From positions 1 through 33,019 of the forward strand of contig SXMN01000090.1 in assembly GCA_005777315.1 (NCBI GenBank): 33,019 nucleotides of DNA, given 5' to 3'. The position numbers were made by a program, and so were the translations under genes. The notes below the pieces were generated by a model. The model was not told where the DNA came from. It did no database searches and saw only the letters and a list, made by a program, of their open reading frames with translations. Source of the DNA: Verrucomicrobiales bacterium. Its GTDB lineage: Bacteria; Verrucomicrobiota; Verrucomicrobiia; Limisphaerales; F1-12-MAGs170. Below are positions 953 through 25,524 of the stretch, in pieces. The stretch's first letter is position 1; each line of letters begins with the position of its first letter.

Positions 953-1038
953 GCTATCAGGGCTTTGGACGTGGTCGATCCGTGATCATCATGTGACGCA
1001 GAGAACATCAAGTGCAAGCGCTCGAATGTGGGGCCACG

Positions 1039-1079
1039 AATAAATGCTACGCACAATCCGGACAGTGTTTGCATTTATT
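1039..1079. promoter_or_regulatory. Inverted repeat ahead of the plus-strand dpd unit, candidate operator
   Basis: A perfect 9-bp inverted repeat (AATAAATGC at 1039-1047, GCATTTATT at 1071-1079) with a 23-bp spacer lies in the 180-bp gap between the AAA+ gene and the first gene of the modification operon. It ends 14 bp before the ATG at 1094, so it could be an operator or a leader hairpin. No convincing -35/-10 pair was identified. If translation began at GTG 1028 instead, the repeat would be coding. Confidence 0.35.
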
Positions 1080-1093
1080 GCTTGTTCCGGGTC

Positions 1094-2071
1094 ATGTTGA
1101 CGGGCAGCTTCTCACCCGTGGCGCGAAAGGTCCTCAATCTGATTGTAACGTGCAGCGCGCGAAAGACAGTCCAACCATCGTCTTGGACTCGCGCACGCAC
1201 ACTCAAAGCTCAAACGCTACCGGAGCGATTCGATGAATGGACTGGCAAACTTGAACGGTGCGGTGCGCAGAAAATTGCCGCTCAAAATCTCTACTGCGGT
1301 TCTTCTTGGGCCGCAATTCGTCGGGCGATTGCGAATTGGGAGCAGCCTGAGGAAATCAAGCTTTGGATAATTTCCGCCGGACATGGACTCGTAAGCGGAA
1401 CCAGTCCGATTGCCCCCTACGCGGCCACATTTTGCTCCAGGCATGCGGATTTCGTTTTGGGCAGGGAGCGGGAGTGCGGCGGTATCGGGATGTGGTGGCG
1501 CCATTTAGTTCGGTGGCGACGCTCAATTAACTCCGATAGGCCGACGAGCATTGAAGCCGTCGCAAAAGCCTACCGCAACAGTCCGCTACTTGTAGCCCTT
1601 TCAGCGGACTATTTTTCGGCGTTGATGACCGACCTAAGTGCAGCCCGCAGGCAGTTACGGAACCCGTCACATTTGGTAATCATCTGTGCTGGGGCAGAGA
1701 AGGAAAGCGAACTAAAGCAGAATCTGCTCCCATGCGATTCACGTCTGGAGCACATTCTGGGAAGAGGGCGTAGTGCGCTTAATGCTCGCATACTCGGCCG
1801 GATTCTTTCTGACACATTGTTTAAGTCCATCGACTCCACGCAGTTGGGGAAGACATACTCCTCGCTATTGCTTCGTTGCCCTCCCTCCACATACCCAAAA
1901 CGCACTCGTCAGAGTGATGAGATAATCTCCCAGTTTATAAGCGCACGATTCAAAGATGACTCGCAAGCCACGCATTCCTGGTTACTAACCGAGTATCGGC
2001 GAACTGGTTTTGCCTGCGAACAATCACGGTTTCGAGACTTGTTCAAAAGAGTGCAATCACACTTCAAATGA
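1094..2071 (+). CDS. YaaA/DUF6884-like protein heading the DNA-modification operon (possible DpdC counterpart)
   Basis: The protein is about 325 aa from ATG 1094. In-frame GTGs at 1028 and 1118 are alternatives. I favour 1094 or 1118 because residues encoded before them look non-conserved and an inverted repeat lies there. Near the N-terminus is a VTCSARKT-type strand-loop (residues 18-25), then LYCGSSW (about 67-73), SAGHGLV (94-100) and PIAPYAATF (105-113). This spacing resembles the YaaA/DUF6884 superfamily, which typically shows a 'CSK' start, 'SAxxGLv' and 'PYxxTL'. The C-terminal 200 residues are not recognised. Its stop overlaps the next gene (ATGA at 2068), so it is co-translated with the DGQHR protein and DpdA. 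In the Salmonella system DpdA, DpdB and DpdC suffice for the modified base, and this is the only other gene in the plus-strand unit. I infer from position that it may fill the DpdC step (preQ0 to amide), but I could not verify homology. Confidence 0.6.
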   Translation: MLTGSFSPVARKVLNLIVTCSARKTVQPSSWTRARTLKAQTLPERFDEWTGKLERCGAQKIAAQNLYCGSSWAAIRRAIANWEQPEEIKLWIISAGHGLVSGTSPIAPYAATFCSRHADFVLGRERECGGIGMWWRHLVRWRRSINSDRPTSIEAVAKAYRNSPLLVALSADYFSALMTDLSAARRQLRNPSHLVIICAGAEKESELKQNLLPCDSRLEHILGRGRSALNARILGRILSDTLFKSIDSTQLGKTYSSLLLRCPPSTYPKRTRQSDEIISQFISARFKDDSQATHSWLLTEYRRTGFACEQSRFRDLFKRVQSHFK

Positions 2072-3204
2072 AAGCTTTCAGCCAAATATTGGAGCGTAAA
2101 GCACTCTGCGTGCGCCAAAGAGGTGGACGTTGTATCTATCTCATGTCGCTCACCGGCGACGAACTTCTGCAGTTGGCTGGCGTATCCCGTATCTGTAGAG
2201 ATGACCGCGGAAAGCTCATCGGCTACCAGAGGCCAGAAGTGCGTAAGCACGTCCGGGCAATCGCTGAATACCTTCAGGGTGATGACATGCTGCTAGCACA
2301 TCCGGTGATCCTCTCGTTCAATTCTCGAGTGAAGTTTGTTTCCAGCCGAGGCAGGAAAACATCTGATGGACTTGCTGTTGCCGGCATGCTGCGCATTCCA
2401 CTTCCTGACCATCCCGACAAGAAACCGGCGTGGATCGTTGATGGGCAGCAACGGGCACTCGCCATCAGTTTGTGTGACGACAAGAGCTTTTCAGTGCCGA
2501 TCTGCGCTTTTGTCGCGGATGACGTTGAATTGCAACGGGATCAGTTCCTGCGAATTAACAACACTAAGCCGCTGCCTCGCGGATTGGTCACAGAACTTCT
2601 TCCATCAGTATCCTCGCCGCTGCCACCCAATCTTGCCCTCCGCAAGATACCATCAACCCTTTGCGATTTGCTGAATCGCGAAGCAATCTCACCCTTCTTT
2701 GGCTTAATCCGGCGCCCATCGAGCGGGACAGAGGGAGTCGAGCGCGCGGTTGTTGCAGACACGGTAATCGTCAAGATGATCGAGGAGAGCCTCGTGCATC
2801 CTTCAGGTTGTCTCTTCCCCTATCGCAACCTGGCAACAGGGGAGTATGACCATGGCGGCATCTGGGCAGTGTTGCTCACGTACTGGGTCGCAGTTCGGGA
2901 CACTTTTCCGGAGGCTTGGGGGAAGTCACCGACCCAAAGCAGACTGATGCATGGCATCGGCATTCGAGCAATGGGTAAGCTCATGGATCGGATCATGGGG
3001 ACGGTAATCGCTCGGGGTCAGCATGCGCAGAAGCATGTCAAGGCAGAACTCGCAGTCGTCGCTCCAGTATGCCGTTGGACTTCGGGCGTGTGGGAACAAC
3101 TTGGAGGCATTAAGTGGAACGAGTTGCAGAATCTACACAAGCATCAAGCAATGCTTTCAAATCTCCTCATCCGAACCTACTTGGAGCAGCGGGCAGATGC
3201 ATGA
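2068..3204 (+). CDS. dpdB: DGQHR-motif protein DpdB, first copy
   Basis: The protein is 378 aa, starting at the ATG that overlaps the previous stop. The hallmark is IVDGQQR (residues 123-129), the DGQ(H/Q)R signature shared by DndB and ParB-like nucleotide-binding proteins. It is preceded by a YQRPEV element (53-58) and followed by INNTKPLPRGL (about 163-173), both conserved in the second copy at 4448. In characterised Dpd systems DpdB is an ATPase-type partner required together with DpdA for placing preQ0 in DNA. It acts in the cytoplasm on DNA, probably in complex with DpdA, whose gene overlaps it by ATGA at 3201. The two copies differ in length (378 versus about 408 aa) and in their middle sections, so this is an old duplication and not a recent repeat. 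Confidence 0.85.
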   Translation: MKAFSQILERKALCVRQRGGRCIYLMSLTGDELLQLAGVSRICRDDRGKLIGYQRPEVRKHVRAIAEYLQGDDMLLAHPVILSFNSRVKFVSSRGRKTSDGLAVAGMLRIPLPDHPDKKPAWIVDGQQRALAISLCDDKSFSVPICAFVADDVELQRDQFLRINNTKPLPRGLVTELLPSVSSPLPPNLALRKIPSTLCDLLNREAISPFFGLIRRPSSGTEGVERAVVADTVIVKMIEESLVHPSGCLFPYRNLATGEYDHGGIWAVLLTYWVAVRDTFPEAWGKSPTQSRLMHGIGIRAMGKLMDRIMGTVIARGQHAQKHVKAELAVVAPVCRWTSGVWEQLGGIKWNELQNLHKHQAMLSNLLIRTYLEQRADA

Positions 3205-4451
3205 AATTCTTCTTTCCAGACGCACATGACTTGGTTGATCCGTCGTTCGATTTCGTAAGCGAACGGAGGACTTTCTCCGGCAGTCGCCAGCAGGCCCAAC
3301 TGTATGCGCACGAAATTCTAAGTGAACCCCCTTACGATGGGATGCTGTTGTCCAAGGCAATGATTGATCCTCACTTAGGGTCAAAGAGCGTGCGCTACTC
3401 GTTTGCCCAGGTCCAACGATTGAAGCGCGTAGGGGTGCGAGAGTTTCTACGACTCGACCGGCCAGGACTAAAGCGTCAAATTGCTTCTATGGGAGACTGT
3501 GGTTCGTTCTCTTACGTCAACGAAGCCGAACCACCGTATGGAGTCGAGGCTGTCGCTCAGTTCTATATGGACTGTCAGTTTGATTACGGGATTTCGCTTG
3601 ATCATGTAATCTTAGGCTTTCGTGATGCCAGTGTGAAGAAGAGTGACGTGCCACCAGATTGGCGGAGGCGCTTTCAGATTACACTCAGCAAGGCTGAAGA
3701 CTTCATTAAGTTGCAACGCCAAGAACATTTGCCCTTCAAACCCATCGGGGCGGCGCAAGGTTGGAGTTCTGAATCCTACCGGGATGCGGTGAAGAATCTC
3801 CAAATGATGGGCTATGACTACATTGCGCTGGGGGGTATGGTGCCGCTCAAAACTCCGGAAATCCTCGCAAGCCTCGAAGCGATCCGCGAGGTGCGCAAGC
3901 CCTCGACAAAACTGCATCTCCTTGGGATCTCACGACTGGAGAACCTGGACGCGTTCGAGGACGCCGGGGTCTACAGTTTTGACAGCACATCGCCGCTGAA
4001 GAGGGCCTTCATGGATGACCGCGACAACTATCACTCGCTTGAGCGGACCTACACCGCCGTGCGCATACCCCAGGTGGACGGCAACGCCCAACTGAAGAAG
4101 TTGATCTTGGCGGGGGTAGTGGATTTTGGCGCGGCTCGGAAGCTCGAACTGGCATGTTTTGAGGGTGTGCTTGAGTTCGACAAAGGAAAGTTGGGCATAG
4201 AGAGCCTCTTGGAACGACTGCGCGAATATGAACTAGTCTGGCATGGAAAAAAGGACGACGCGGTCCGTTACCGGGAAACTTTGGAGGACAAGCCATGGAA
4301 AAGATGCCGCTGCGCCATCTGCCAGAAACTGGGAATCCACGTAGTGCTGTTTCGAGGGGCCGAGCGAAATCGTAGGCGGGGATTCCACAATCTTTACGTG
4401 CTTCGGCAACGGTTGGACCGACTTCCGGCCAAAGAGAAAGGCAAGACATGA
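3201..4451 (+). CDS. dpdA: DpdA, DNA-acting tRNA-guanine transglycosylase paralogue
   Basis: The protein is 416 aa. The start is ATG 3201 because it overlaps the dpdB stop (ATGA); an earlier in-frame start at 3114 would lie deep inside dpdB. It is a TGT-fold enzyme that exchanges guanine for a 7-deazaguanine without breaking the strand. Visible family elements are GDCGSFSY (98-105, with the Asp corresponding to the DSGGFQ general base), a GGMVPL loop (211-216, base recognition), FDSTSPLKR (260-268, Asp261 as the likely nucleophile) and the zinc site Cys369, Cys371, Cys374 and His396. It is more divergent than a tRNA enzyme, as expected for DpdA, which inserts preQ0 into DNA. It lies between two DGQHR genes and is translationally coupled to both. 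It is the diagnostic gene of the island. Confidence 0.93.
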   Translation: MKFFFPDAHDLVDPSFDFVSERRTFSGSRQQAQLYAHEILSEPPYDGMLLSKAMIDPHLGSKSVRYSFAQVQRLKRVGVREFLRLDRPGLKRQIASMGDCGSFSYVNEAEPPYGVEAVAQFYMDCQFDYGISLDHVILGFRDASVKKSDVPPDWRRRFQITLSKAEDFIKLQRQEHLPFKPIGAAQGWSSESYRDAVKNLQMMGYDYIALGGMVPLKTPEILASLEAIREVRKPSTKLHLLGISRLENLDAFEDAGVYSFDSTSPLKRAFMDDRDNYHSLERTYTAVRIPQVDGNAQLKKLILAGVVDFGAARKLELACFEGVLEFDKGKLGIESLLERLREYELVWHGKKDDAVRYRETLEDKPWKRCRCAICQKLGIHVVLFRGAERNRRRGFHNLYVLRQRLDRLPAKEKGKT

Positions 4452-5674
4452 CAAAAGGTGAAAAACTTGAGGTGCCAGCGATCGCGATCCGGCAAAGCGC
4501 CAAGCACGAGCTTTACGCGTTCGCTGTGGATGGCAAACGGCTCCATGATTTTGCGCAAGTGTCGCGACTCGCTCGAGACGAAAGCGAAAAAATAGCTGGC
4601 TACCAACGCCCCGAAGTCGTCGCGCACATTGCCGAAATCCGGAACTACCTAGAATCTGAGGGACCGATGCTACCAAACGCGATTGTCGTGGCGTTCAACT
4701 CACGCGTCCAGTTCAGGCCATTGAAGGGGACACGCCCTGACAAGGGACCGACCCATGGGCATCTGGTTATCCCAACCGATTCGGACACCGATGGCGCCAA
4801 GGCTGGCTGGATCGTTGACGGGCAGCAGCGAGCAGCAGCGATACGCGACGCTCGTCTGGATGCGTTTCAGGTATTCGTGACCGGGTTCATCACGGACAGC
4901 GTTGTGGAGCAGCGCGAACAATTCATCCTGGTCAATTCGACCAAACCGCTACCCAAAGGATTGATTTACGAACTACTTCCGGCAACGGATGTGCAACTCG
5001 CCAACCATCTGCAGCGGAGACGCTTCCCGGCCTATCTGCTTGACCGATTGAACTACGACTCCAGGTCGCCTTTGCACCTTGCGATCCAGACCCCAACGAA
5101 CCCGTTCTTGGACCTGAAAGTCCGTAGTCGGAGAGGCTTTCAGACAATGCTCCAACCCAAGCCGCAGGAAAGGGGGACTCCTGCCGACCCGAAAGTAGGC
5201 GAAGCCAAGCTTCAAGGCTTCATCAAGGACAACTCCATCCTGCGAATGCTTGAAAATAGTCTGCACGACGGCGCTTTGTATCGATGCCGACTGCAGGCAG
5301 ACGATGAGGCTGACACCGAGCGAATGCTGGAACTGCTCTTCAACTTCTGGGAAGCGGTGGCTGAAGTCTTCAAAGGAGCATGGGGGCAACCGCCGACACG
5401 CTCGCGCCTCACCCATGGTGTCGGGATCGTTTCGTTGGGATACCTGATGGACGCGATCGCCGACAGGTTTCGTTCAAAGGGGATTCCAACGGTAGATGAG
5501 TTTGCCGCGGATTTGTCTCCACTTAGTGCGCATTGCTCTTGGACCGATGGATACTGGAACTTCGGGCAGGGGAATCAGCGAAAGTGGAATGAAGTTCAGA
5601 ACACAACCAAGGACATCCAACTGGTCGCGAACCACTTGCTGATTCAATATAAGCGGCTTATTTGGTCGAAGTGA
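4448..5674 (+). CDS. DGQHR-motif protein DpdB, second copy
   Basis: The protein is 408 aa, beginning at the ATG overlapping the dpdA stop (ATGA). It carries YQRPEV (about 52-57), IVDGQQR (122-128) and a VNSTKPLPKGL segment about 30 residues later, parallel to the first copy at 2068. An insertion of roughly 30 residues (about 215-250, rich in charged residues) accounts for much of the extra length. The C-terminal half keeps the paired motif WGQPPTRSRLTHG, which matches WGKSPTQSRLMHG in copy one. The family is nucleotide-dependent and partners with DpdA. Having two full-length, motif-intact copies around one dpdA suggests a hetero-oligomer or division of labour. The gene ends 7 bp from the oppositely oriented DpdD-like gene with no obvious terminator between them. 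Confidence 0.82.
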   Translation: MTKGEKLEVPAIAIRQSAKHELYAFAVDGKRLHDFAQVSRLARDESEKIAGYQRPEVVAHIAEIRNYLESEGPMLPNAIVVAFNSRVQFRPLKGTRPDKGPTHGHLVIPTDSDTDGAKAGWIVDGQQRAAAIRDARLDAFQVFVTGFITDSVVEQREQFILVNSTKPLPKGLIYELLPATDVQLANHLQRRRFPAYLLDRLNYDSRSPLHLAIQTPTNPFLDLKVRSRRGFQTMLQPKPQERGTPADPKVGEAKLQGFIKDNSILRMLENSLHDGALYRCRLQADDEADTERMLELLFNFWEAVAEVFKGAWGQPPTRSRLTHGVGIVSLGYLMDAIADRFRSKGIPTVDEFAADLSPLSAHCSWTDGYWNFGQGNQRKWNEVQNTTKDIQLVANHLLIQYKRLIWSK

Positions 5675-5681
5675 CAGCCCG

Positions 5682-7955
5682 CTACGACGCGACTTGCGTC
5701 TTCACCGCCGACAAAAGTGATGAAACGATGCTCGAAGAGCCTTTGCCGGATGGGTAAATGAATGGGCTTTTTCCCCGTGGGCGCTGGTTTTTAAGAAACT
5801 CTGTGGCCGCGTGCTTTGCACTGCGCGTTGTGACAACAAAGTAGTCAGCTTCCCGCGCAAGAGACCTCAATCGCTCGGAACCACCCTGATCGTGATTCAG
5901 TCGCACATCGAGACTACTGCAGAGCGCATCGAGCGTTCGTTTGGCACGTAGCCCAGCAGACTCAGTGAGCGTGTAGATTGCCACAAGTTTTCCGCGCAGT
6001 GCTTCCGCCCAATTAGTTCCTTCGGGCGCGGTCGCGTCAGGGGCAGGAAACGTCAACGCCGAATATTCGGCTTCACGCCCAAGATCTGTGCAAATCAACT
6101 TAAACATCTGACGCTCATCAAGACTGACCCTCCGTGCGTTGTCGCTTATTGTTCGCCACACGGCAGTGAAAAACCCATCCCTAGCACCTGGCACAAGTGC
6201 CGGCACCACAATCAACTCATCGAGCATGTCCAATGCCCAGTTTAGATGTAACACGTCACCACGCTGCGACCAGATTGCGCTGAGCAATTCAAGCGCTTCC
6301 TGATATTCGGACCCTGAAGCGCCAGCATTGAGAATCGCGACGCCAAGATTCTGCGCCATCCCCCAGTCTTGGCCACCGAATCGCTGATCAGCGGCCAATA
6401 GCCACAGCAAGCTCTGATAAATTGGAAGAAACACGGGTTCGCCGACTCCATCGTCAAAAAAGAATTGAGCGATGTGCGGTATTGCCGATCTCACCTTAAT
6501 TGCGGCGCTTTCGGGGCGATTTGAAAGCAGTTGTTTGGCAAGCTTGGACACTCTGCCCGGATCTGTTTCATAAGGATTCAACGCCCATTCGCTTACACCT
6601 TGATGTGCTACTTCTAGCGCCTGCGACCAGGTGGAATCCTGATCTAAGGCCTCTAACCAGGTTTCCCAATCGGTGGGTGTTTTCCCAGATTGCGATGCCA
6701 ATAATTCTTCGATCTCCTGCCACGTCCGCAATCGGGACCGCAGCTTTAGAACTTGGCTTCGCTCATCCGGTTGCAGTTGCGCCATCGCATCAAATGTCTG
6801 CCGGGCAACATCGGGACCGAGTAGTTCAATGGCACAATCGAGTCGCAGTTCGCAAGACTTGACGCTTGGAACTGTATTTTGAAGATGCAGCCAGGCCGAG
6901 TCAAAATCTCTTGATGATAGAGCCCGCGCGGTCAGTTCCAGCAGATCAGCCTTTGACTCACGGATTGAAGGCGCTACGTGAGCCGCCATTGCCTCTGCGA
7001 AAGGCCTTTCTGGACAGTCTTGTGGAAGCGCCGCCAGAAGTAGAGGGACCTGCTCCTTGCGTGGAGGAATAGCGGCTACAGCAGCAGTCAGGAAGGCTAA
7101 GACTACGGGCGGTTGTGCAAGAGAACCTCGCGCCTGGAGCAATGCCCCATAATTCTGGAGGATGTTCGCACGGGTGTGCGCAAGCGCATCGGCAACACGA
7201 TTACCTGCCACGAATCCAGCCAACTCAGTCCGCCAAACAGCCTCAACCAGAAGAGATGTGATTCTACTCGGGCGGCGCATTGCCAGCAGCATGCTTAGGC
7301 GAGCGTCCAGCAGCATGTCCGTCCAGCGCCCCAGCGAACCCTGGCGCTCAATCTGCAAAAAGTGCAAATTCTCAGCGCTTAAGCGACCAGACAAGTGCAA
7401 TTGCTGAAGCCAGTAGCTAGAGGACTTCTCGTCTGTATTGAGCAGTGCCGCAAAAAACTCGCGCAACATCGCATCAGTCGTGCGTAGCGGTGCACGTTCT
7501 GACATTGGTTGCAACCGCCAGACCTGCCTCATTCGGTTCAGGGCTTCACGCACCTGATTCTTGCATTCGGGCAACGGGGTGAACCGATATATCCAAGGAC
7601 CCCCAGACCACCGCTCAATAGTCGACTCCAGTACAATCGCGGAGTCCATGTCGGACCGCCGCCCATGGTAGTCAGAGCCGACTGGACCGAGGAAAGCGTT
7701 TAAATGTTCGCGCAATTCTTCGCACTGAGCGTCACTGAACGCTATCGCGAACCATTCGCTTCGCTCATCGTCGTGCAGAACGGGCAGAATCACTGGATGA
7801 TCTCGGGGAGGTGGACAGGCTTCGATCCAGTCGCGTGCGCTACGCCCTCGTGCGCTTGAGGCTTGGTCAATCTCACCCCACGACCAAGCCTGACCAGTCT
7901 CGTAGAACTGCTGCAGCGCCAGACGATCTACTTCATCCCATCCATTCAAGTTCAT
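5682..7955 (-). CDS. dpdD: DpdD-like protein, last gene of the long minus-strand operon
   Basis: The protein is 757 aa, starting at the ATG that overlaps the stop of the helicase gene (ATGA at 7952-7955). No catalytic motif is recognised. The N-terminal 150 residues look globular, with many aromatic residues and a GPWIYRFTPLPE segment. The remainder is rich in Ala and Leu and almost entirely helical in character, like TPR or HEAT-type scaffolds. Size and position in a Dpd cluster fit the protein called DpdD, whose biochemical role is unknown and which is not needed to make the modified base, hence probably restriction. The name rests on context and length rather than on a diagnostic motif; an unrelated island-specific helical protein remains possible. 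Confidence 0.65.
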   Translation of the reverse strand: MNLNGWDEVDRLALQQFYETGQAWSWGEIDQASSARGRSARDWIEACPPPRDHPVILPVLHDDERSEWFAIAFSDAQCEELREHLNAFLGPVGSDYHGRRSDMDSAIVLESTIERWSGGPWIYRFTPLPECKNQVREALNRMRQVWRLQPMSERAPLRTTDAMLREFFAALLNTDEKSSSYWLQQLHLSGRLSAENLHFLQIERQGSLGRWTDMLLDARLSMLLAMRRPSRITSLLVEAVWRTELAGFVAGNRVADALAHTRANILQNYGALLQARGSLAQPPVVLAFLTAAVAAIPPRKEQVPLLLAALPQDCPERPFAEAMAAHVAPSIRESKADLLELTARALSSRDFDSAWLHLQNTVPSVKSCELRLDCAIELLGPDVARQTFDAMAQLQPDERSQVLKLRSRLRTWQEIEELLASQSGKTPTDWETWLEALDQDSTWSQALEVAHQGVSEWALNPYETDPGRVSKLAKQLLSNRPESAAIKVRSAIPHIAQFFFDDGVGEPVFLPIYQSLLWLLAADQRFGGQDWGMAQNLGVAILNAGASGSEYQEALELLSAIWSQRGDVLHLNWALDMLDELIVVPALVPGARDGFFTAVWRTISDNARRVSLDERQMFKLICTDLGREAEYSALTFPAPDATAPEGTNWAEALRGKLVAIYTLTESAGLRAKRTLDALCSSLDVRLNHDQGGSERLRSLAREADYFVVTTRSAKHAATEFLKNQRPRGKSPFIYPSGKGSSSIVSSLLSAVKTQVAS

Positions 7956-10900
7956 GCGTAGTGACCGTGAAGGTTTAATCGGAACTGCGCCACGCGTGCT
8001 GGACTGATTTCTAATTGAACGGCTTCCTCGAGCACTTCGACACCGTTGTAAGTAAAATTCATCGACCCATTCAATGCAAATCCGGCGGTCACCAAACCTT
8101 TCGTGTGAAGCTCGGGGCGGCGATCATCAAGGTTTAAGCGGTCATTGTTGCCATCAAGAGCTATGAGTGTGCGCAGCCTTTCGCAGAAGCGCGCTGTATG
8201 CTCGCCTGGCCGTGTAACAACGTGGAGACGACATTGGGGCTGTGTCCGCAATGCGAAGGCTAGTAATTCTGCGAGGGTTAGATGCCTTTTCGGCCACGAA
8301 GGCTCTAGACCGGAGTAACTGCCCGCACGATTGTCCAGCACTGGAATGTCGGAGATCCACGGCGATACCAACCATATTTCCTCACCCGGATGCAACAACT
8401 CGGCGGCAAGTAAGCTCTCCAGCAATTCGCGCACTTCGTCCCGATTGCTCCTTGCTGATTTCACGATCAGTCGGCAGGTGCTCCGATCAGACTCGCCATC
8501 AGGTGGCGGAACGATTTGGCTGGCGGTCGCAAGTTCAAAGAGCGCAGCAATATTGTCACCGCGACGTTCAATACCACGGAGTCGCGGATAGACTAATAGT
8601 GAACCAGTGTCCACAGGTCGCACAACCAGTTCAGTCAACGCCTCCCTGAATGCGGACAAGCCATTTACGGGCGTGGTCAAGGCGGTTCTTTGGTGCTCAA
8701 TCAAGCACCGCTCGAAATCTACGCGCCACGCGACAGAGCCAAACACAACTTCAGGCTCGACTGGTCCCAAGAGGTCAATCACAAGCAGGCGCTCGGGATC
8801 AGGCATCTCGAAGAAGGATTGGCGAATAGTCAGCGCATGGTTTCGGGCATGACTGCCGCGCGGCCACAGGAGGCCTGACAGCGCATTGAACCGCCAGGTT
8901 CGCCGATCCTCGCCAGCGCCAATAGGCAGCATGCCGTTACTGAGAGACTGGTCCAACTGGTCCCCGGCGCTAAAAGCATATGCCACTGCTCGGGCCTCAA
9001 TCTCCAAGCCTAATCGCCGCTCCTCTTGCCGCCACCGCTCCATTACTCCGTGGACGAGCGCATCACTCTGGGCTGTGCTTCCCGCCTTAAGCAACCGCGA
9101 TGAGAGCGCCGTCATCACCGAATGGCTAGTTTGCAATCCGCGCACCCGCAAATAAGCATGCAGGCTTCGAAAAGCGGCGGTGAGTGTCTCTAGAGTATCG
9201 GCTTGTCGCAGATGCCTGAGATGCTCGCCCAGCGCAGATCCTTCTTCGGCGACGGCCCATAGAGCGAAGCGGCTGAGTTCGCGGTCAGCACACTCAAAGT
9301 CAGATTCACCCATCGCACTCCGGAGGAGATCAAGAAAGCGGCGCGGCGACTCGGCAAGACGTGGAAGCAAACGTTCAACTATGCCTCCACCCCCTGGCGT
9401 GTCCTCGCTGATCCAGAGATCGCTCGTTTCAGTGGTATCTGGCAAATGGCCGGCTTCGTCAGGACCAGGGGTGAGATCTAGTCGCAGACTGTCGGCATCG
9501 ATATCGGGACACATCTGCTGCACGGCTTCGCGAAATGCAGCGGCGACTGTAGCTAGATACTTCTCCCTCAACCACGGGTCCCAGTCATCGCTTGGAGACT
9601 CCCACAGGACGGGAACGCACTCATTCAGAACGACCAGGACACTTTGGTCGCTGATGAGGGTGCGCAGATCAGCAAGACGACGCTGCTCGACGCGCGCTGC
9701 ATCTTCTTCTGCGTCAGATGGAAGTGTCTGGAAAACCACATCCAGAACCGAGGTCAACGGCAGTTCGGCATGCTCATCGCGCAGAGCGGTCCAAGCATCT
9801 GGCAAGAGTAGTGCCTTTTGCACCGCATTCGCTGTGATCGCAGCTAGAACGATTTCTGCCAACCATCCTCGCTCAAAGAAATTGGCAACACCTTCCAAAC
9901 GCGGTTCATGGAGAACAAGCCAGCGGAACCGTGCCGCCCGCAACGATGGCAACTTGCCTGAAGACGCATCGCCACCTGTTAACCGCCAATTTGCAGGCAT
10001 GCGCACGCGCACGCGCACTGCATCCGCTTCAAATGCGAACCCCAGCGCGACCGGTTGCTCTCCGCCGCCTTGATCATGCGTTACGAAGCGCGATGCAAAC
10101 TCTTTAGTGTCGCCTTGTCCAAGGTTTATTTCAGCCTCCGACCCCAGGGCGAATCGCCTCACTTTTGCAGGCTGGTGCAGGTGATGAGTAAAAAAACGGA
10201 TCTCCTCAATCAATGGCGACCATGTCGAAATTGGAGGAAGGTCTATGACCAGCCCAGCGTGCGCCGAAGCAGGAGCGATGATTTGAGAGTGCCATGTGAG
10301 GAAGGCGTTGGAAGAATCCTTCACTTCACGAGGTGCATCGCGATTAACACGCAACACAAACGGACGCAATACGAGCACTCCCTTGATCTCCTGCCCGTCT
10401 AGGTAGTGGAAGACTCCAAGTTCCTCTCGCTCGTCTAGTCCGCAGAACGCAGTCACATCCACGGATTGCTCCGCTGGTCCATTGGGATCAAGGGGCAACC
10501 AGTGGCGTGACAAACCATGCTTAATGCCAAAGCGCTTTGAGATGCGCCCAGGTGCGAATTCGCGCAAAGCACTGGCTGCCGGCATTGGAAACACATCGGA
10601 CTCATCCGTTGTACCCAGCGCAGCTATGACTTGGACCTCGGGCAATTGCAAATCGCTGAATAGCGTAGCGGGAATGAATTCTGGAAGAGGTGACTTGGCG
10701 TGCCACTCTGCACCAACTGTGGATCCACTCTGCCATTGTGTTTTCAAACGACGATATAAGGATGGCAGCACTGCGGTCATCAGCGCTCGCGGCGGCTCCC
10801 ACAGAACAGCCTGCACATCTCCTTGGGACAAGCGTAGCGCGTGGAGCAGAAATTCGCTTAACCGGTCCAAATCGTCTCCACCCGCAAGCACCATTTCAAT

Positions 10901-13123
10901 CAAATCCGCAGCGCTCTTCTGCCGCCTTCGCACCCAGTCAGAGTCGCCTGGGCAACTCGCGTCCTTCCAGAAGCTGCCGTTATTCCCTTTGGGCTGTCTC
11001 ATTGCAATCCAGTCCATGCAGGCATAAACAGCCTGCATTTTGAGAACATGTCGATTGGCCAAAGGCAAATCGCGCGGGCGCAGTTCAGGATCAAAAAGCA
11101 GGTCATAACCCTGATAAGCGAGGCGATCACGACCAAAGTCTGAGAGGACCACTACCGTCCAAGGTCGCATCTCCCGGCTGCGCCCCGCCCGACCTTTGCG
11201 CTGGAGGAAGGCTGATGCCTCGCGAGGCGCCTTATGTTGCAAGACTGCCCCAACGTCGGGATCATTGAAGCCAACTTCCAGAGATGCTGTGGCCACAATT
11301 ATCTCCGCAGATACATCCACACCGCTGTCCTGCGAGCTCACTCGCCCCAAGCGGATTGATGACTGCGGGATTAGTTCATGCCCGAGTCGCTCGCACAAGC
11401 GCCACGACTGCCCATGAGCGAACCGCCGGTTGTCATCCGGATGTGTAGAGGATCGAAGAGTCGCCAGTGAGCCTTCGGGATGTCGTCTAGGGTCGGACCT
11501 TCCGCGGTTATCCTGTCCCTCCGCGTCCAACAAGTTGAAATACATCCGATTGGTCACGTCCAAATCATCCGTGAACAAGAAGACCTTTCGCCCAAATGCA
11601 CCTTGAGAATGCCCTCCGCTCAGCGGATCAAGAATACGGCGGAGCAGCATTGCGGCTTGGATTGAGGTGGAAAGCAAACTTGCGCCCGAGACGGGATCGC
11701 CTCGCAGGGCCAGCATATATTCCATTCCTTCGTGAATCATTTCCGAAGTCTCTGGCGCAACCTCCTCCACACTTGATGCTGCCAGGCCAGTGAGCTGTGA
11801 GAAAAATGACGATGCCTCCATCAGCGTCGCAGACAACCCCACAAAGTGCGGCTTCGCCTGGCTCCGATGCCGCCAGCGCCGGAGCAGATGAGCGACCTGT
11901 GCTCCGTGCGTGCCTGAATAAGTGTGCGCTTCATCGATGAGAACAAAAACCGGCCTTTGTCCGGGAGGTTTGTCCACGCCAAAGAGATGCCAGTTCCACG
12001 AATCAGTGAGATGCTGGTTCATCATCTCCGTGCTGGTAAAAAGCACATCCGGCGGCGATTTTGCCATGCGCTGGCGAGTGAGGATAATCTCATCAGATTC
12101 CAGCGCTATTCCACAGCTATGACAGACAAGGCGCTCCAATTGATTGGCTCGATCTAAATTAGGCCAGACCATCGGACCGCTACAGTCAGCATCCGGGCAT
12201 GCCAGGAACGGACAGACTCGTCCGCTACCAAGAAGCTCCCAAGGTTTTCCCCAATTTGAGTCTTCTACTGCACGTCCGTCATTCGGCGTCGGGCCGAAAT
12301 AGGCACCGATCAGAATAGGTCTCCTCCCCGCAGTCACCAACAAGGTTTTCACCCGGCGCGCCTGTCGGCAGGTTTCCGTAAGCTGATCCTTTAGCAGTTC
12401 ATTGCGGGGATAGATTGCCAGAGCCCGCGTCCAGTGCGACTGATCGCGTTCGATCATGCCGACCAGATGAATTAAAGCGGGTAGGTAGAAGGCCAGGGTC
12501 TTGCCACTTCCGGTTCCTGCGCAGATCATGGTGCCAGCCGAGTGTGGGCTCGAGGCAAACCCAAGAATGCGAGTCGTGGCACGCACCTGAAAACCTGCCA
12601 ATGGGAATCCGTCGCCGCCGCCTGCCACACCGAGCAAAGCCCGGAGGACACTTCCTTGCAGCGAAGTCAAGTGCCCTGAACCGGTCACTGACTGCCACTG
12701 CTGGATGCACTGAGCTGCAATCTGATCGCGCCTGGGATATTGCCGAGCCCGTAGCAGAAACCGAAAGTCAGCCACAAGCGTGGGACTCGTTGCCCAGCCT
12801 CCTGGCTGCCGCAAATGCTTCGGAAACAACTGCCGCAAACGGGCCGTGAGCCGAACGGCCTCCGCCATTCGCGAGCGATAGCGCGTGGCGCCCGAAACGT
12901 TCCACCTAAATAGCAGTCCGCGACGTTCCATCTCGTCCAGCATGGCTAATCCACTCGCGAACAGATTCCAGGCGTCTTGAGACGCGAGCAAAGCTTCTGC
13001 ACGATTAATCAACTCTTCGTCGGTAGAAAAGCCATCGACTAACCCCCAGGAGAGTAGCGCAGCCTCGGAGCGCTCGACGCTGCCCATAAACTCGGCCAGC
13101 AATTTATTAGCGGGCTCGCTCAT
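7952..13123 (-). CDS. dpdJ: DpdJ-type DEAH helicase with a C-terminal phospholipase-D-like (DpdK-like) domain
   Basis: A very large protein (1723 aa). Helicase motifs appear in order: Walker A AGTGSGKT (202-209), DEAH (397-400), SAT (431-433), a TASLEVGFND segment (about 612-621) and motif VI QRKGRAGR (641-648). Between Walker A and DEAH sits a likely zinc site (Cys304, Cys309, Cys314, Cys334, Cys337). A long middle region has no recognised motif. The last 150 residues end in a PLD signature: HTKG (His1673, Lys1675) and GSMNFT (1686-1691), though the usual Asp of the HKD motif is replaced (Ala at the expected position). In the described Dpd systems the helicase (DpdJ) and the PLD protein (DpdK) are, as I recall, separate genes; here no separate dpdK exists and the two appear fused. 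The expected role is DNA unwinding or translocation and cleavage in restriction. It is coupled by ATGA to both neighbours. Confidence 0.85.
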   Translation of the reverse strand: MSEPANKLLAEFMGSVERSEAALLSWGLVDGFSTDEELINRAEALLASQDAWNLFASGLAMLDEMERRGLLFRWNVSGATRYRSRMAEAVRLTARLRQLFPKHLRQPGGWATSPTLVADFRFLLRARQYPRRDQIAAQCIQQWQSVTGSGHLTSLQGSVLRALLGVAGGGDGFPLAGFQVRATTRILGFASSPHSAGTMICAGTGSGKTLAFYLPALIHLVGMIERDQSHWTRALAIYPRNELLKDQLTETCRQARRVKTLLVTAGRRPILIGAYFGPTPNDGRAVEDSNWGKPWELLGSGRVCPFLACPDADCSGPMVWPNLDRANQLERLVCHSCGIALESDEIILTRQRMAKSPPDVLFTSTEMMNQHLTDSWNWHLFGVDKPPGQRPVFVLIDEAHTYSGTHGAQVAHLLRRWRHRSQAKPHFVGLSATLMEASSFFSQLTGLAASSVEEVAPETSEMIHEGMEYMLALRGDPVSGASLLSTSIQAAMLLRRILDPLSGGHSQGAFGRKVFLFTDDLDVTNRMYFNLLDAEGQDNRGRSDPRRHPEGSLATLRSSTHPDDNRRFAHGQSWRLCERLGHELIPQSSIRLGRVSSQDSGVDVSAEIIVATASLEVGFNDPDVGAVLQHKAPREASAFLQRKGRAGRSREMRPWTVVVLSDFGRDRLAYQGYDLLFDPELRPRDLPLANRHVLKMQAVYACMDWIAMRQPKGNNGSFWKDASCPGDSDWVRRRQKSAADLIEMVLAGGDDLDRLSEFLLHALRLSQGDVQAVLWEPPRALMTAVLPSLYRRLKTQWQSGSTVGAEWHAKSPLPEFIPATLFSDLQLPEVQVIAALGTTDESDVFPMPAASALREFAPGRISKRFGIKHGLSRHWLPLDPNGPAEQSVDVTAFCGLDEREELGVFHYLDGQEIKGVLVLRPFVLRVNRDAPREVKDSSNAFLTWHSQIIAPASAHAGLVIDLPPISTWSPLIEEIRFFTHHLHQPAKVRRFALGSEAEINLGQGDTKEFASRFVTHDQGGGEQPVALGFAFEADAVRVRVRMPANWRLTGGDASSGKLPSLRAARFRWLVLHEPRLEGVANFFERGWLAEIVLAAITANAVQKALLLPDAWTALRDEHAELPLTSVLDVVFQTLPSDAEEDAARVEQRRLADLRTLISDQSVLVVLNECVPVLWESPSDDWDPWLREKYLATVAAAFREAVQQMCPDIDADSLRLDLTPGPDEAGHLPDTTETSDLWISEDTPGGGGIVERLLPRLAESPRRFLDLLRSAMGESDFECADRELSRFALWAVAEEGSALGEHLRHLRQADTLETLTAAFRSLHAYLRVRGLQTSHSVMTALSSRLLKAGSTAQSDALVHGVMERWRQEERRLGLEIEARAVAYAFSAGDQLDQSLSNGMLPIGAGEDRRTWRFNALSGLLWPRGSHARNHALTIRQSFFEMPDPERLLVIDLLGPVEPEVVFGSVAWRVDFERCLIEHQRTALTTPVNGLSAFREALTELVVRPVDTGSLLVYPRLRGIERRGDNIAALFELATASQIVPPPDGESDRSTCRLIVKSARSNRDEVRELLESLLAAELLHPGEEIWLVSPWISDIPVLDNRAGSYSGLEPSWPKRHLTLAELLAFALRTQPQCRLHVVTRPGEHTARFCERLRTLIALDGNNDRLNLDDRRPELHTKGLVTAGFALNGSMNFTYNGVEVLEEAVQLEISPARVAQFRLNLHGHYA

Positions 13124-13842
13124 CGTCCTCCCATATTTACTCGAAAAGCCTGCAGCAGATTTTTCTCTCGAAGCCAGGCAAGCACCTTGTCGTTCAATTC
13201 GCCAAGGGAAACACCTCCAGAATTGGCGACCTGCTCAATAAACTTTTTCACCTCTGGCGGAATATCTCCGAAATCCAATTTTTTAACCAACCGATGAATC
13301 TCGCGGCTCTTCTCTTCGGCTCGTTTAAGGACTTCGGCATCGCCAGGCAAGCTCTGCGCGAGAGCGTCCAACTCCTTGTGCAAAGTTTCAATCTTGGTTA
13401 TTTCGCTGCCGAAACGACCGCCTTGAAAGAATGGTAACCAGTCGTCGAGCTTGGGCGCGATTGCTCGTAGATGGGTTTCCCAGATTACGTCCAACGATTT
13501 TTCAAGGGCATCAGCGGCACTTTTCAGCGCGGTATCCGCCTTGGCCCAACCGCTTTGCTGCATAACCTTGTCCGGCTTGCTCACGAGTTTATCCCGAAGA
13601 TCCGGCAAGGTTTTCTGCAGCAGCGCATCAACCCCGTTTGGGACCAGCGAACGACCAACCGGAAGCAATTCGCCGCGTTGCATTCGGCGGAGAACGGCAA
13701 CGAGATGCTTCAAGCGGGCGAGGTGATTCGGCAAATTCTGGAGCAGCGGTTGCCAGGTCCGAAGGATTTGCTCGTTCGCCCCGATAGATTCCACCCGGGC
13801 TAATTTCTCGCGCAAGATCGCGTTTTGCTGAAGGAGTGTCAT
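13120..13842 (-). CDS. dpdI: DpdI-like small helical protein
   Basis: The protein is 240 aa. The start is ATG 13842, which overlaps the DpdH stop (ATGA) and has GGAGG a few bases upstream; an in-frame codon at 13866 would add 8 residues inside dpdH. The sequence is Leu-, Lys- and Glu-rich with heptad-like stretches at both ends (residues 1-60 and 150-220), suggesting coiled coils. No catalytic motif is visible. It lies between the ATPase DpdH and the helicase DpdJ, so it may be an adaptor linking them. The name is given by position and size within the Dpd gene order, and its molecular role is unknown. Confidence 0.65.
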   Translation of the reverse strand: MTLLQQNAILREKLARVESIGANEQILRTWQPLLQNLPNHLARLKHLVAVLRRMQRGELLPVGRSLVPNGVDALLQKTLPDLRDKLVSKPDKVMQQSGWAKADTALKSAADALEKSLDVIWETHLRAIAPKLDDWLPFFQGGRFGSEITKIETLHKELDALAQSLPGDAEVLKRAEEKSREIHRLVKKLDFGDIPPEVKKFIEQVANSGGVSLGELNDKVLAWLREKNLLQAFRVNMGGR

Positions 13843-16800
13843 CGTATTTCCTCCACATCCTGCCAAAGTTTTTCCACGTCCTCCACTTCCTTTGCCCGGC
13901 GCTGACCCTCATCGGCAACGCTTGCTGGGGCTTTGGCGAGTTGCTCATCGACCGACTCGGTCGTCTCCTGTAGAAACACTGCGTATTGCTTGAAAATCCG
14001 CCGGGAGGTTTCTTCGGTGCGAGAATCGGCCTGCGCCAGCGCCGAAAGAATCACGCCGAAATCGTTTGTTTCCGCAACCTTTTTGGCAAACTCCAGCGTC
14101 TCCTTGAGGCGGCACTCCGGCAGTTTGTTAAGTGAATCTCGAAGGCTGTCATAAGTGACCCCGACTCCGCGGAACACATGTGCTTGATGTGCGGCGAGCG
14201 CCGTTTTCTTCATATCATCGCCCAGCACGCGCACGTCGAAATCTTTCCCAACCCATTCGTCAATCTCACGGCGCCATTGCCCGAGTGCAGCGCCCCGCTG
14301 GGCGGCGGCATTTTTCAGCAGATTTTTCAGGTCTCGCAAGTGCTGGAGCAGGGACGGATAACCTCTAAAATATTCCAGATCCCCTTGAAAGAGCCACGAA
14401 CCTCGCAGTTCCTGAATAGCCGCGAGCAATTCCGTAGCGTCGATTGCCTGCACGGTATCTCCGGTTCCCTGGCGGGCTGCCACCAGGCGCAGGAGCAACT
14501 CTCTCGCCTCGCTTCGAAAGCGTCGGGCACCCGACCGCAGCCTGAACCATTGATCTTCCGTGTCGGGCACTGTTCCCTCTTCAGGAGGTGCGCTGGCAAA
14601 GAGCGCGGTAAGATTGTCCGCGTCCGTATTAGCGGACGCGCCCTCCAAACCCAGCAGGCGGGCGCCAATGAGCAACGATTGAGCGAGTGGGCGAATTGCC
14701 TCACGAGGAAGCGAGTGAGCCTGCCTTCGCATCCAGTCCTCAGTCTGTCCGACCATGTGATAGATCAAGTTAGCGTAGGCCGCGCTATCGGCTTCTCCCC
14801 CGTCGTAATTCCAACTGCGGTTACCGTCTTGGAAACGGATCACAGCAGCGAGTGCGCTGAAGAATTGATCGGCGCGCGATTCATCCTTCAACTCCTCATC
14901 GGTGATCGCGACAGCCACAGTACTGGCCGCAGTGGGATTTCCGATGCCCACTTTGGGCAACCAAATTCGGGTGTGATCGAGAGGCGCAGATTCGATCAGG
15001 AGCGATTCCCAGTCAATCCACTGAGCCACAGCATCACACAAAAACTTCCTGACCCTGTTTGCATCCGGACTGCTGATTATACCCTTTACTCGCCAGTCTT
15101 GAAGTTTTTGTAACCAAGGATCGCGATTCTCCTCCTTCTTCTGGCTCGGCTCCTTCCCTTTCGCTTGCTCCACCTTAACCGGTCGAGTCTGTTTTTCCGC
15201 AGCTTCCGACCACTTGACCGGCGGCAGCTTAAAAGCGCGATAAACGGCCTCTGACAAACACGCGGCTTCACTGGGGGCTTGCGGGTCGTTGCCCCAATGG
15301 AAAATAAGCGCGGCTAGCCGATCGACCTGCTCTGGGTCCGCTCGCTGGTTGAGTTCGCGTAGGACGGGTTGCGCCAGTTTTCCTCGGACAAACTGCTGAA
15401 AATTTCCCGGCGGAAAACTCGCGGCGTCAAAAAGGGGACGGTTGGTTAAGAGCGTTTCGCGCAAGACGAGATTGAGCAACTCGCGCGGATTGAAGACGAA
15501 GGTATTGCCCTCTCGCAGATGACGTCGCGCCAGTTGATGAATGACGCCCTGATTGAACGGGAAAAGCGGATGGTTTCCGCGCGAAGAAAAACCGAACTCC
15601 TTCAACGCTGCGGCGCTTTCGGTATCGAGATCATCCTGCCGTTCGTCGTAGAAATTCGGCAACCAATCCTGGAGATCGCTTGCGCCCTTCGCGCGTTTCT
15701 TGAACTCCTTTTGGAGACGCGCTTTGCCCCAGCGCGCCGCATTCAGATATCCGCCAACAAAATTGGTGAAGGTGGCGATGGCTTCTGCTTCTTCGCCACT
15801 TGCGAAAGGACGCTCTTCGATGCGCCACTCATACTGGGCACGGGTCAGAACTGTTTCACGATTGGCGAGATAGCCTTCGGTGACAGCCAGCGCCGTTCGC
15901 ATCACGCAGAGATGTTGCTTTCCATCGCGAATGCCCTCACGAATCATAGCATCGAGCAGGCTTCCCTGAATGCCGGCGAGTGCGGCGAAATCCTCCACCA
16001 GTAGCACGAGTTCCTTGCGGTCTTTGAGCAACTGCTCGCGCAGTTTCACGAAGAGGTCGGTGAGAGAGTTACCGCCAAAATCCAGCAATTCACCGAGCGC
16101 GGGATCGATTACCTCATTGAGAACGCTCACCGCGACTTTTCGAGCCTGCCCATCTCGCAAAGTGAGGTTCATCAGATACGCCTTGGTCGGCTGCGCGAGC
16201 GTGTTGCGATCGAGTTTTTCGTCGAGTCTCAGGTCGTCCTCGGTAAAGTGATAGTCGGTCCCTTTGGCGACGTGCGCGCCTTGCATGTATCGCTCGGCGA
16301 TCCGAGCGATCACGCCTTTGCCGGTTCCTTCGTTAGCCATGAAATGCGCCGTGATTGCAGGATCCTGCAAGAGCGCAGGCAAACCTCTTGGATCACAGTG
16401 CGTCATCCGCTCCTGACCAAGCTTCCGTTCCTCAGGAGTCGCCTTGCCTTCCAGCATCCGGGCACGTGCTTGCCGATGGGCACGCTCCAGCGCGACCAGC
16501 AGTTTCTCGCGCAGTCCATAGGTAGCCGCCAGCAGATCTGGCGGCATGCGCGCGGAGGTGAGTTCCTTGCGGAGCGTGCCGTAGCGTTCCTCGGGCAGTT
16601 TTTCCAAGATCAACTCCAGGACACGCCGCAGGCTCGCGCTTTTCGGGATGCGCACAATGTGCCGCAGCACACCATCATCGCGATTTTGCAAATGTGCATC
16701 CAGCCAGCGGATCATGTGCGATTTGCCGACCCCGGAGTTTCCAACGATCGGAACGAGCAGCGTCCCTGAGGCGAGGTTTTTCGCCAATACCGCCTCGAGC

Positions 16801-16976
16801 AAATCGGTTTCCTTCTTTTCCTCGGGTTCCGTCTGGGCGCGCAGATGGCGACGGACGAGGCGCATCGGCTGATGCACCGCGAGGAACACGGCCACGTCGG
16901 CCGTTTCGGCTTCAGTGACCAGACACTCGTCGCAATTCTGCGGGCTGGGCCAGAATTCTTTAAGTGATAGTTCCAT
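13839..16976 (-). CDS. dpdH: DpdH-like P-loop ATPase
   Basis: The protein is 1045 aa, ATG start 16 nt after the DpdG stop. A Walker A motif GNSGVGKS (79-86) lies after a short N-terminal segment, and a hydrophobic Walker B-type strand LVLLVEDFA (323-331) follows about 240 residues later. This arrangement is typical of STAND/AAA-like ATPases with inserted helices. The region near 600-640 (Lys/Glu-rich) is a charged linker, and the final 200 residues are helical. In Dpd systems this protein is part of the non-modifying, presumably restriction, set. The N-terminal segment contains two close cysteines (CDECL) that could bind metal. Neighbouring dpdG and dpdI suggest a motor complex with the helicases. 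The gene name rests on size, P-loop and synteny. Confidence 0.78.
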   Translation of the reverse strand: MELSLKEFWPSPQNCDECLVTEAETADVAVFLAVHQPMRLVRRHLRAQTEPEEKKETDLLEAVLAKNLASGTLLVPIVGNSGVGKSHMIRWLDAHLQNRDDGVLRHIVRIPKSASLRRVLELILEKLPEERYGTLRKELTSARMPPDLLAATYGLREKLLVALERAHRQARARMLEGKATPEERKLGQERMTHCDPRGLPALLQDPAITAHFMANEGTGKGVIARIAERYMQGAHVAKGTDYHFTEDDLRLDEKLDRNTLAQPTKAYLMNLTLRDGQARKVAVSVLNEVIDPALGELLDFGGNSLTDLFVKLREQLLKDRKELVLLVEDFAALAGIQGSLLDAMIREGIRDGKQHLCVMRTALAVTEGYLANRETVLTRAQYEWRIEERPFASGEEAEAIATFTNFVGGYLNAARWGKARLQKEFKKRAKGASDLQDWLPNFYDERQDDLDTESAAALKEFGFSSRGNHPLFPFNQGVIHQLARRHLREGNTFVFNPRELLNLVLRETLLTNRPLFDAASFPPGNFQQFVRGKLAQPVLRELNQRADPEQVDRLAALIFHWGNDPQAPSEAACLSEAVYRAFKLPPVKWSEAAEKQTRPVKVEQAKGKEPSQKKEENRDPWLQKLQDWRVKGIISSPDANRVRKFLCDAVAQWIDWESLLIESAPLDHTRIWLPKVGIGNPTAASTVAVAITDEELKDESRADQFFSALAAVIRFQDGNRSWNYDGGEADSAAYANLIYHMVGQTEDWMRRQAHSLPREAIRPLAQSLLIGARLLGLEGASANTDADNLTALFASAPPEEGTVPDTEDQWFRLRSGARRFRSEARELLLRLVAARQGTGDTVQAIDATELLAAIQELRGSWLFQGDLEYFRGYPSLLQHLRDLKNLLKNAAAQRGAALGQWRREIDEWVGKDFDVRVLGDDMKKTALAAHQAHVFRGVGVTYDSLRDSLNKLPECRLKETLEFAKKVAETNDFGVILSALAQADSRTEETSRRIFKQYAVFLQETTESVDEQLAKAPASVADEGQRRAKEVEDVEKLWQDVEEIR

Positions 16977-16991: not shown

Positions 16992-17903
16992 TTACTTTGG
17001 GCGGCGGAAGCTAAAGTGGGAATATTCACCCACCACGCCGCGTTTGCGGCCGGTGAGTCGCGCTCGAGAAGGAAAGTCCGAGTCCTTCTTACCTTGCAGT
17101 GTTCCGTCGGATGTGAACCGCAGAAGAGCGCGACTGAGGCTGGTGGAAACTTGACCTGGGGGCGGGGAAAGCCATCCGTCCGGGCTTTCGTGCTCGCGGA
17201 GTTTATTTTCAACCAGTTGCCGATACCCCCCCTGATCCAGAACGGGCACGACGGAGGCGACGGAGGTGAGGAATTCATCCGCAGCCATGGTGGCGCGTTT
17301 TCCAAACACGATGGGGAGAGCATGGCGCAGCGCTTTCGTAGGATCGATGATTAAAGGGCTACCTTTGGTATTTCCAACAGTACCGAAACCAAGATATGGC
17401 ATCCACGCCCGGAGACCATTCCACCGAGTATCGTTCTGTCCAAAGATACCGTCGTTCCCCGGCATTTGTATTTTCATGATCGCCTGAACGCTCGGCCATG
17501 AGCTGTGCTCCGCTTCGTAAACATCTTGCGCCAGCAACCACGCTGTGGCGCGCGTGAAATCGGCGCAGCGGGAGTCTTCTGTTTCCCAAAACCGCTCGTT
17601 ATTTTCGGGAGCGAGGGCCCGCCGACTCGCCCATACGGGAAGCAAATCCTCACGCCGCTCCTCCTTAGGGACGAGTTGGCTTATGGAAATCTTGGGATTC
17701 ATGGCATCCCCGGAACTCTCGAAAAGTCCCAACTCGACCCACGTATTGAGCGTCCCCCGCGCATGCTTTGGCTCGCACAACCCGGCCGGCGCACACAGGC
17801 TGAGCAACCGGTCGCGATCCAGAGATTTTTCGGCTAGAAGCAATCGGTAAATGGCGACAAGCACGCCGCGTTTTCCGTCATTGGTGATGTTGAGTAGACT
17901 CAT
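16992..17903 (-). CDS. dpdG: DpdG-like protein
   Basis: The protein is 303 aa, with an ATG overlapping the DpdF stop (ATGA at 17900-17903). The first 80 residues (NDGKRGVLVAIYRLL, then helices and GTLNTWVELGLFE) look like a winged helix-turn-helix, implying DNA or protein binding. The rest has no recognised catalytic motif. It sits between the RecQ-like helicase DpdF and the ATPase DpdH, where DpdG is found in known clusters, and its length also fits. It could be a DNA-recognition subunit of the restriction arm; this is inference. Confidence 0.72.
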   Translation of the reverse strand: MSLLNITNDGKRGVLVAIYRLLLAEKSLDRDRLLSLCAPAGLCEPKHARGTLNTWVELGLFESSGDAMNPKISISQLVPKEERREDLLPVWASRRALAPENNERFWETEDSRCADFTRATAWLLAQDVYEAEHSSWPSVQAIMKIQMPGNDGIFGQNDTRWNGLRAWMPYLGFGTVGNTKGSPLIIDPTKALRHALPIVFGKRATMAADEFLTSVASVVPVLDQGGYRQLVENKLREHESPDGWLSPPPGQVSTSLSRALLRFTSDGTLQGKKDSDFPSRARLTGRKRGVVGEYSHFSFRRPK

Positions 17904-24703: not shown

Positions 24704-25524
24704 ACGACGGCGAAGGCGGAGTGGTTGTGGATGCTCTCGTGGTTGACAGCGCTGACCTCGAACCAGGCAACTCGCTTGTCTTTCATTAGAAACCCAGCGG
24801 CGTTGCGCACGACATCCTCCACAAAGACCGGGTTGTCGTAGGCCTGCATCGTGACGTGGCGTTCGTCTGAACGCTTCAACAGCGGATAGACGGGAGAGGA
24901 GGCGGAACGCTCGGCAAGTTCGATAAGTTCCTCGAACCAGATCAACTCCCACTGCTTGCCCTTTCGCCGAGGTCGCACCGAAATTGTGATGTAGCCCCGC
25001 TGGTTGTGCGCGCCATAGTCACTGATCTCCTTCGAGCACGGGCAGAGGGTTCCCACGGGCACCTTGACGCGCAGCACGAAGTCATCCTCACTGGCGTTTG
25101 ACTCCGCAACGAAAGCACACTGGTAATCCATCGGTGCCCGCTGTCCGGTGACCGGGGCGGAACGGTGGAGGAAATATGTGAACTCCAACTCGATGTGAGC
25201 CGCCTCGGCCTCGAGTCGCTGCTTCAACTCATGCAGCATGATCGGCAGCGTGTGCATGGTGAACTCGCCCTCGTGGCGGCAGAGCACCTCGACGAAGCGA
25301 CTCATGTGAGTGCCCTTGAAGTGATGTGGAAGATTCACCGACATCGAGACCCGCGCAGCCGTCTGCTGCCGCTGGCTTTCGCGATCCAAAACCGCAATAG
25401 GGAAGGTGAGGTCACAGACGCCGACCTTGTTGATCTCGATGCCCCGCTGGTCGCGCGACTTCTGGATGTCAGCCAAAGGTTTTTTAGCCGCGTAAGTTCC
25501 GACTGGTCGCCGATTATTCTTCAT
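24691..25524 (-). CDS. folE2: GTP cyclohydrolase FolE2
   Basis: The protein is 277 aa, ATG start overlapping the queD stop by 11 nt. It makes 7,8-dihydroneopterin triphosphate from GTP, the first step to preQ0 (and to folate). The FolE2 type is recognised by the N-terminal VGVCDLTFPI segment, the central GTLCPCSKEIS motif with Cys161/Cys163 (catalytic cysteine region), HNQRGYI and the C-terminal ESIHNHSAF. Length fits the family. FolE2 works with metals other than zinc, whereas the common FolE is zinc-dependent. Being in the operon makes precursor supply independent of the host's folate genes. Start and stop are both overlapped by neighbours, so it is translationally coupled. Confidence 0.92.
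   Translation of the reverse strand: MKNNRRPVGTYAAKKPLADIQKSRDQRGIEINKVGVCDLTFPIAVLDRESQRQQTAARVSMSVNLPHHFKGTHMSRFVEVLCRHEGEFTMHTLPIMLHELKQRLEAEAAHIELEFTYFLHRSAPVTGQRAPMDYQCAFVAESNASEDDFVLRVKVPVGTLCPCSKEISDYGAHNQRGYITISVRPRRKGKQWELIWFEELIELAERSASSPVYPLLKRSDERHVTMQAYDNPVFVEDVVRNAAGFLMKDKRVAWFEVSAVNHESIHNHSAFAVVCSH

Follow-up and report, generated by a model that had tools for sequence, protein, structure and literature searches.

The best-known relatives of the locus analysed here are the Dpd systems (7-deazaguanine DNA modification/restriction) of Salmonella Montevideo and other Enterobacterales, which are composed of dpdA to dpdK with a single dpdB and draw on the same gene families. The first-pass annotation of the present DNA had cited one DpdB for the Salmonella system, in agreement with the Enterobacterales loci read, each of which has a single dpdB. 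To our knowledge, the work on Salmonella leaves the role of DpdB in the insertion of 7-deazaguanine into DNA unclear.

A complete Dpd cluster was found in the 33,019-nucleotide stretch of DNA that was analysed (the window); it lies on a single contig of a 5.66-Mb genome that is 82% complete. The plus strand carries a dpdC-dpdB-dpdA-dpdB operon, and dpdD to dpdE followed by preQ0 genes run convergently on the minus strand. The operon consists of dpdC, encoding the dPreQ0-to-dADG enzyme (1028..2071; PADLOC DpdC 1.4e-58; GTG at 1028, the real start possibly lying further downstream), the upstream-type dpdB (dpdB-U, product U; 2068..3204, 378 aa; PADLOC PDLC02811 5e-136, 451 bits; NCBIfam NF041060), dpdA, encoding the TGT-like enzyme that inserts preQ0 into DNA (3201..4451, ATG at 3201; PADLOC 2e-164; NCBIfam NF041059, 543 bits), and the downstream-type dpdB (dpdB-D, product D; 4448..5674, 408 aa; PADLOC PDLC02811 2.4e-142, 472 bits; NCBIfam NF041060). 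The minus strand encodes dpdD (5682..7955; NCBIfam NF041061, 476 bits), a dpdJ-dpdK fusion in a 1723-aa frame (7952..13123; NCBIfam DpdJ at residues 15-1536 and DpdK at residues 1551-1722), a dpdI-like gene (13120..13866; PADLOC DpdI 5e-8), dpdH (13839..16976; NCBIfam 728 bits), dpdG (16992..17903; NCBIfam 250 bits), dpdF (17900..20575; NCBIfam 729 bits), dpdE (20487..23819; NCBIfam 925 bits) and the preQ0/preQ1 supply genes folE2, queD, queE, queC and queF (type II) (24691..27825; NCBIfam and Pfam matches). DpdA, both DpdBs, DpdC, DpdD to DpdH and the DpdJ-DpdK fusion pass or clearly match their models, and DpdI falls under its cut-off (NF041066, 72 bits against 150).

dpdJ and dpdK are fused in the window and separate in 17 of the 17 other loci that have both; the fusion may reflect a physical DpdJ-DpdK partnership, a lost stop codon or an assembly error. 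Between dpdE and folE2, the minus-strand frame 23828-24952 gave a borderline methyladenine DNA glycosylase match (25.9 bits, cut-off 25); a base-removal enzyme beside a base-modification system would merit attention. Directly 5' of dpdC lies a gene for an IetA-like AAA ATPase, truncated by the window edge (2-913, plus strand).

Both dpdB frames are intact, as had been proposed, and bracket dpdA. The ATGA overlaps noted on either side of dpdA were read at 3201-3204 (dpdB-U/dpdA) and 4448-4451 (dpdA/dpdB-D), and a further 4-base ATGA overlap joins dpdC to dpdB-U (2068-2071). The motifs IVDGQQR, YQRPEV, NxTKPLPxGL and WGxxPTxSRLxHG are all present in U and D, and the reported divergence in length and middle section (378 versus 408 aa) is largely owing to a 36-residue insertion in D. 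Neither copy falls outside the DpdB family: U scores 399.6 bits and D 470.6 bits against the equivalog NF041060 (cut-off 300 bits), each has the DGQxR motif intact (IVDGQQR) and is linked to dpdA, and no further strong DpdB match was found in the 82%-complete genome. An identity of either copy as DndB was rejected on DGQHR_dnd_1 scores of 46 and 52 bits, far below the cut-off of 450, and pseudogene status on the intact frames, strong NCBIfam matches and low dN/dS.

The in-frame insertion of about 36 residues in dpdB-D (5106..5215, approximate bounds, plus strand) is present in no other D row compared. It is predicted to be disordered, with pLDDT below 50 at residues 229-237 and 247-251. An origin from mobile or repeated DNA was considered and rejected: the genome holds no good second copy, and neither repeats nor an unusual fold was seen.

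The occurrence of the two-copy layout was surveyed by scanning GTDB-species genomes with a DpdA profile and scoring the 80 resulting loci with DpdB and DpdA models. The sample is biased: the DpdA profile was seeded mostly from two-copy systems, and the 80 loci most identical to it were kept. dpdB was found on both sides of dpdA in 52 of the 80 loci; in a further locus, L031, the upstream copy is present and the contig end cuts the downstream one. A downstream copy only was found in 23 loci, including L062, whose contig begins at dpdA, hence the upstream side is not judgeable, and no dpdB was found in four. The two-copy loci span at least eight phyla (Myxococcota, Planctomycetota, Pseudomonadota, Verrucomicrobiota, Actinomycetota, Rhodothermota, Cyanobacteriota and Hydrogenedentota), with a further one in an unplaced MAG and one labelled Minisyncoccota. 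L026 carries the label Paceibacterota and is perhaps a misbinned contig. Within the class of the window, one other genome shows the two-copy arrangement. Nine plasmid records have two DpdB places, and in the two two-copy plasmids that were read both genes around dpdA are annotated 'dbpB'. In the stretches of DpdA-bearing viral contigs (IMG/VR) that were fetched, DpdB was undetected. The rarity implied by the first-pass annotation was thus not borne out: the layout is common (53/80 loci in this biased sample). Extra dpdB copies had also already been counted: according to the available passages of the GATOR-GC preprint (2025; PMC11888242), dpdB has the most extra copies, 801, among 2,335 unique dpd windows, and those passages contain neither the layout nor the phylogeny of the copies.

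The phylogeny proposed at the outset was calculated, and it separates the two copies as distinct paralogues within DpdB. The U copies form one clade with support 100/100, present in 100% of the bootstrap trees sampled (57 proteins, 1000 ultrafast bootstraps) and supported at 100 and 99 in two larger quick trees; all D copies, the single DpdB of Enterobacterales and related taxa included, lie outside it. With distant DGQHR proteins as outgroup in one of the larger trees, U and D emerged as sister groups. The direction of duplication is not fixed by this tree, given poor support for the D branch (82) and long branches in the outgroup. Matching subgroups appear on the U side and on the D side (the window grouped with L026 and L067; an alphaproteobacterial group; L087 with L093), which fits co-inheritance of the two genes. 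The neighbours of the window's two DpdBs point to Verrucomicrobiota as its probable phylum. On the sequence evidence, U and D are two ancient paralogue types that have been inherited together. A recent tandem duplication was rejected, the copies being 35% identical (BLASTP E 6e-77) and U forming a single clade across phyla. Retention of redundant copies for dosage would suit two full-length members of one family; it is contradicted by the tree, with its ancient split, fixed type residues and fixed position across phyla, and is highly improbable. We did not find the split of DpdB copies into two ancient types described in the literature consulted, which did not cover the first descriptions of Dpd (PNAS 2016, Mol Microbiol 2018).

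The order dpdC-U-dpdA-D is fixed for U, and the U stop and dpdA start share a 4-nt overlap in 44 of 56 pairs. U without D was seen in none of the 80 loci (the D of L031 being lost to the contig end), and D without U occurs. Across 19 genome loci of the D-only kind and an Enterobacter plasmid, dpdC abuts dpdA at the U position, with gaps of -4 to 92 nt; D-only and U+D loci seem to differ by one gene that is either cleanly present or missing. With the caveat of a weak root, the single-copy arrangement resembles a reduced version rather than the starting state.

Several DpdBs lacking a nearby dpdA were also found (L114, L115, L116 and L024), on plasmids of Euzebya, Nonomuraea and Variovorax and in Myxococcus phage Mx4. 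These orphans mostly carry the D-type diagnostic residues and fall outside the U clade in the tree. On a Variovorax plasmid the orphan shares an overlap with a DUF6884 gene (PADLOC PDC-M57A), with a type I-E CRISPR locus next to them, and in phage Mx4 a DUF6884 domain piece precedes it; orphan DpdB and DUF6884 are possibly a separate two-part system. Three cyanobacterial loci (L076, L095 and L099) have DpdA and no DpdB, and their 715-721-aa frame begins with a DpdC-like domain (weak matches), which suggests a DpdC-DpdA fusion in loci that lack DpdB. Some two-dpdB operons are followed on the opposite strand by a third DGQHR gene that is only distantly related (93-138 bits to DpdB), for example at L032:11793-13370(-), L035:10972-12111(-) and L098:14245-15750(-), among others. 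In L069 (Photobacterium) and L072 (Vibrio) two different dpdA-dpdB pairs adjoin, of which the second encodes a highly divergent DpdB (stem length 2.85).

DGQQR, GxQR and the Asn of VNxTKP are 100% kept in the U and D alignments. Other residues are fixed by type in every row: Arg216 and Ser218 in U, and Thr217 in D (window protein numbering). Where it could be computed, dN/dS between close relatives was 0.02-0.16 for U and D. Both are under strong purifying selection, and both look functional, judging from their sequences. Distinct paralogues with their own fixed residues would fit either a heteromer or a division of labour.

One form of such a division is that separate U and D homodimers steer DpdA to different DNA sequences or substrates and broaden the modified set. 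The differing type-fixed residues, the retention of the nucleotide-binding motifs in each type, the conservation of each on its own terms and the finding of D alone are all compatible with it. Independent specificities are, however, at odds with the fact that U is never seen without D, and DpdA covaries far more closely with D than with U. We consider separate homodimers unlikely.

The covariation was measured as partial distance correlations over 41 loci, giving 0.69 for D-DpdA, 0.40 for U-DpdA and 0.28 for U-D given DpdA. Given DpdA and D, U-DpdC gave 0.33, and D-DpdC gave -0.02 (22 loci only). Coevolution cannot be separated here from co-inheritance because the distances carry shared ancestry. 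The modest U-D value means that an obligate tight U:D pairing is unsupported by the distances, D tracking DpdA more closely.

The correlation with DpdC bears on a reading in which the main partner of U is DpdC, the two channelling dPreQ0 to dADG, and D serves DpdA. Such a partnership would also suit the position of dpdB-U between dpdC and dpdA, overlapping both in the window. dpdC is nevertheless present in D-only systems as well, and in L061, a U+D locus, none was detected; we give this reading only a small probability. The looser coupling of U to D and DpdA and the weak hint of a coupling to DpdC lend some plausibility both to a DpdC partner role and to separate specificities.

The looser coupling of U to DpdA would also fit a regulator in place of a modification subunit, for instance a repressor of the operon comparable to DndB in phosphorothioation. 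Both proteins match the Pfam family named for DndB, which the available part of one source describes as a regulator of phosphorothioation (PMC4507180). A repressor would need no dependence on D, however, and U retains all the D core motifs; its gene is embedded in the operon, where it overlaps both neighbours in the window and, in most loci, dpdA. A regulatory U therefore seems quite improbable.

Models of U and D were obtained with AlphaFold (mean pLDDT 86.5 and 89.2, respectively). The best fold matches of D were nucleotide-bound ParB CTPases (7bnr, Z 9.9, 94 residues, 2.5 Å), and the top Foldseek matches of U were the same ParB chains (7bm8, probability 0.97, E-value 0.026); the Foldseek E-values of the DpdB models to ParB are weak, at about 0.03 or higher. 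The predicted structures place both proteins in the ParB/Srx superfamily nucleotide-binding fold, at the level of fold. A sequence search of the PDB gave no solved DpdB relative. DpdB is treated as a ParB-like ATPase in a 2026 comparative paper (PMC12839542).

The reading that we prefer, at about even confidence, is that D partners DpdA constitutively, that U is a second subunit with a dedicated role, and that a U:D heterodimer acts as an NTP-switched DNA clamp. ParB proteins are dimers that close on DNA upon nucleotide binding, and a U:D heterodimer clamp for DpdA is therefore favoured. An anciently duplicated pair of ParB-like NTPase subunits, inherited jointly, would thus serve the Dpd modification enzyme. 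D would partner DpdA throughout, alone in Enterobacterales-type systems, and U, encoded between dpdC and dpdA, would be a specialised accessory relying on D. Pairing in the manner of ParB, the two would form a nucleotide-switched DNA-binding clamp that holds DpdA, and perhaps DpdC (encoded beside U), on the DNA, where guanine would be exchanged for preQ0 and the latter then converted to the amide. The heterodimer, the clamp, its contact with DpdA or DpdC and a need for U in activity are what we infer. Single-copy systems reportedly function with D alone in the Salmonella work, so U would not be universally required. A bolder version is doubtful, if possible: outside Enterobacterales-type systems, Dpd would normally depend on an obligate U:D heterodimer, a ParB-like clamp gated by NTP, to load DpdA (and DpdC) on DNA, and the Salmonella system with its single DpdB would be a reduced form.

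Compared with ParB, Noc and KorB CTPases, the likeness lies in the predicted N-terminal domain of U and D, which matches nucleotide-bound ParB structures; D aligns over about 95 residues at 13-18% identity, and the C-terminal helical half is without a clear match. Like the DndB/DGQHR phosphorothioation proteins, the window DpdBs have the DGQxR motif and the DndB domain of Pfam, but the window genes are linked to dpdA and not to dnd genes, and their products score far below the DGQHR_dnd_1 cut-off. Among the two-dpdB islands (Agrobacterium vitis, Skermanella, Myxococcus, Planctomycetota, a Verrucomicrobiota MAG and others), the order dpdC-U-dpdA-D is that of the window, and the window U and D both group with L067 (a Verrucomicrobia MAG) and L026; the 36-residue insertion in D and the dpdJ-dpdK fusion set the window apart from them. 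The Enterobacterales loci read share the order dpdC-dpdA-dpdB with the window, a D-type DpdB being encoded directly 3' of dpdA, whereas the window adds a U-type dpdB between dpdC and dpdA, the dpdJ-dpdK fusion and the attached preQ0 genes. One annotation name shared by U and D masks a real distinction, and the U/D split opens a direct test of what DpdB does. The existence of two ancient DpdB types suggests that the best-known, Salmonella-like system is the D-only form.
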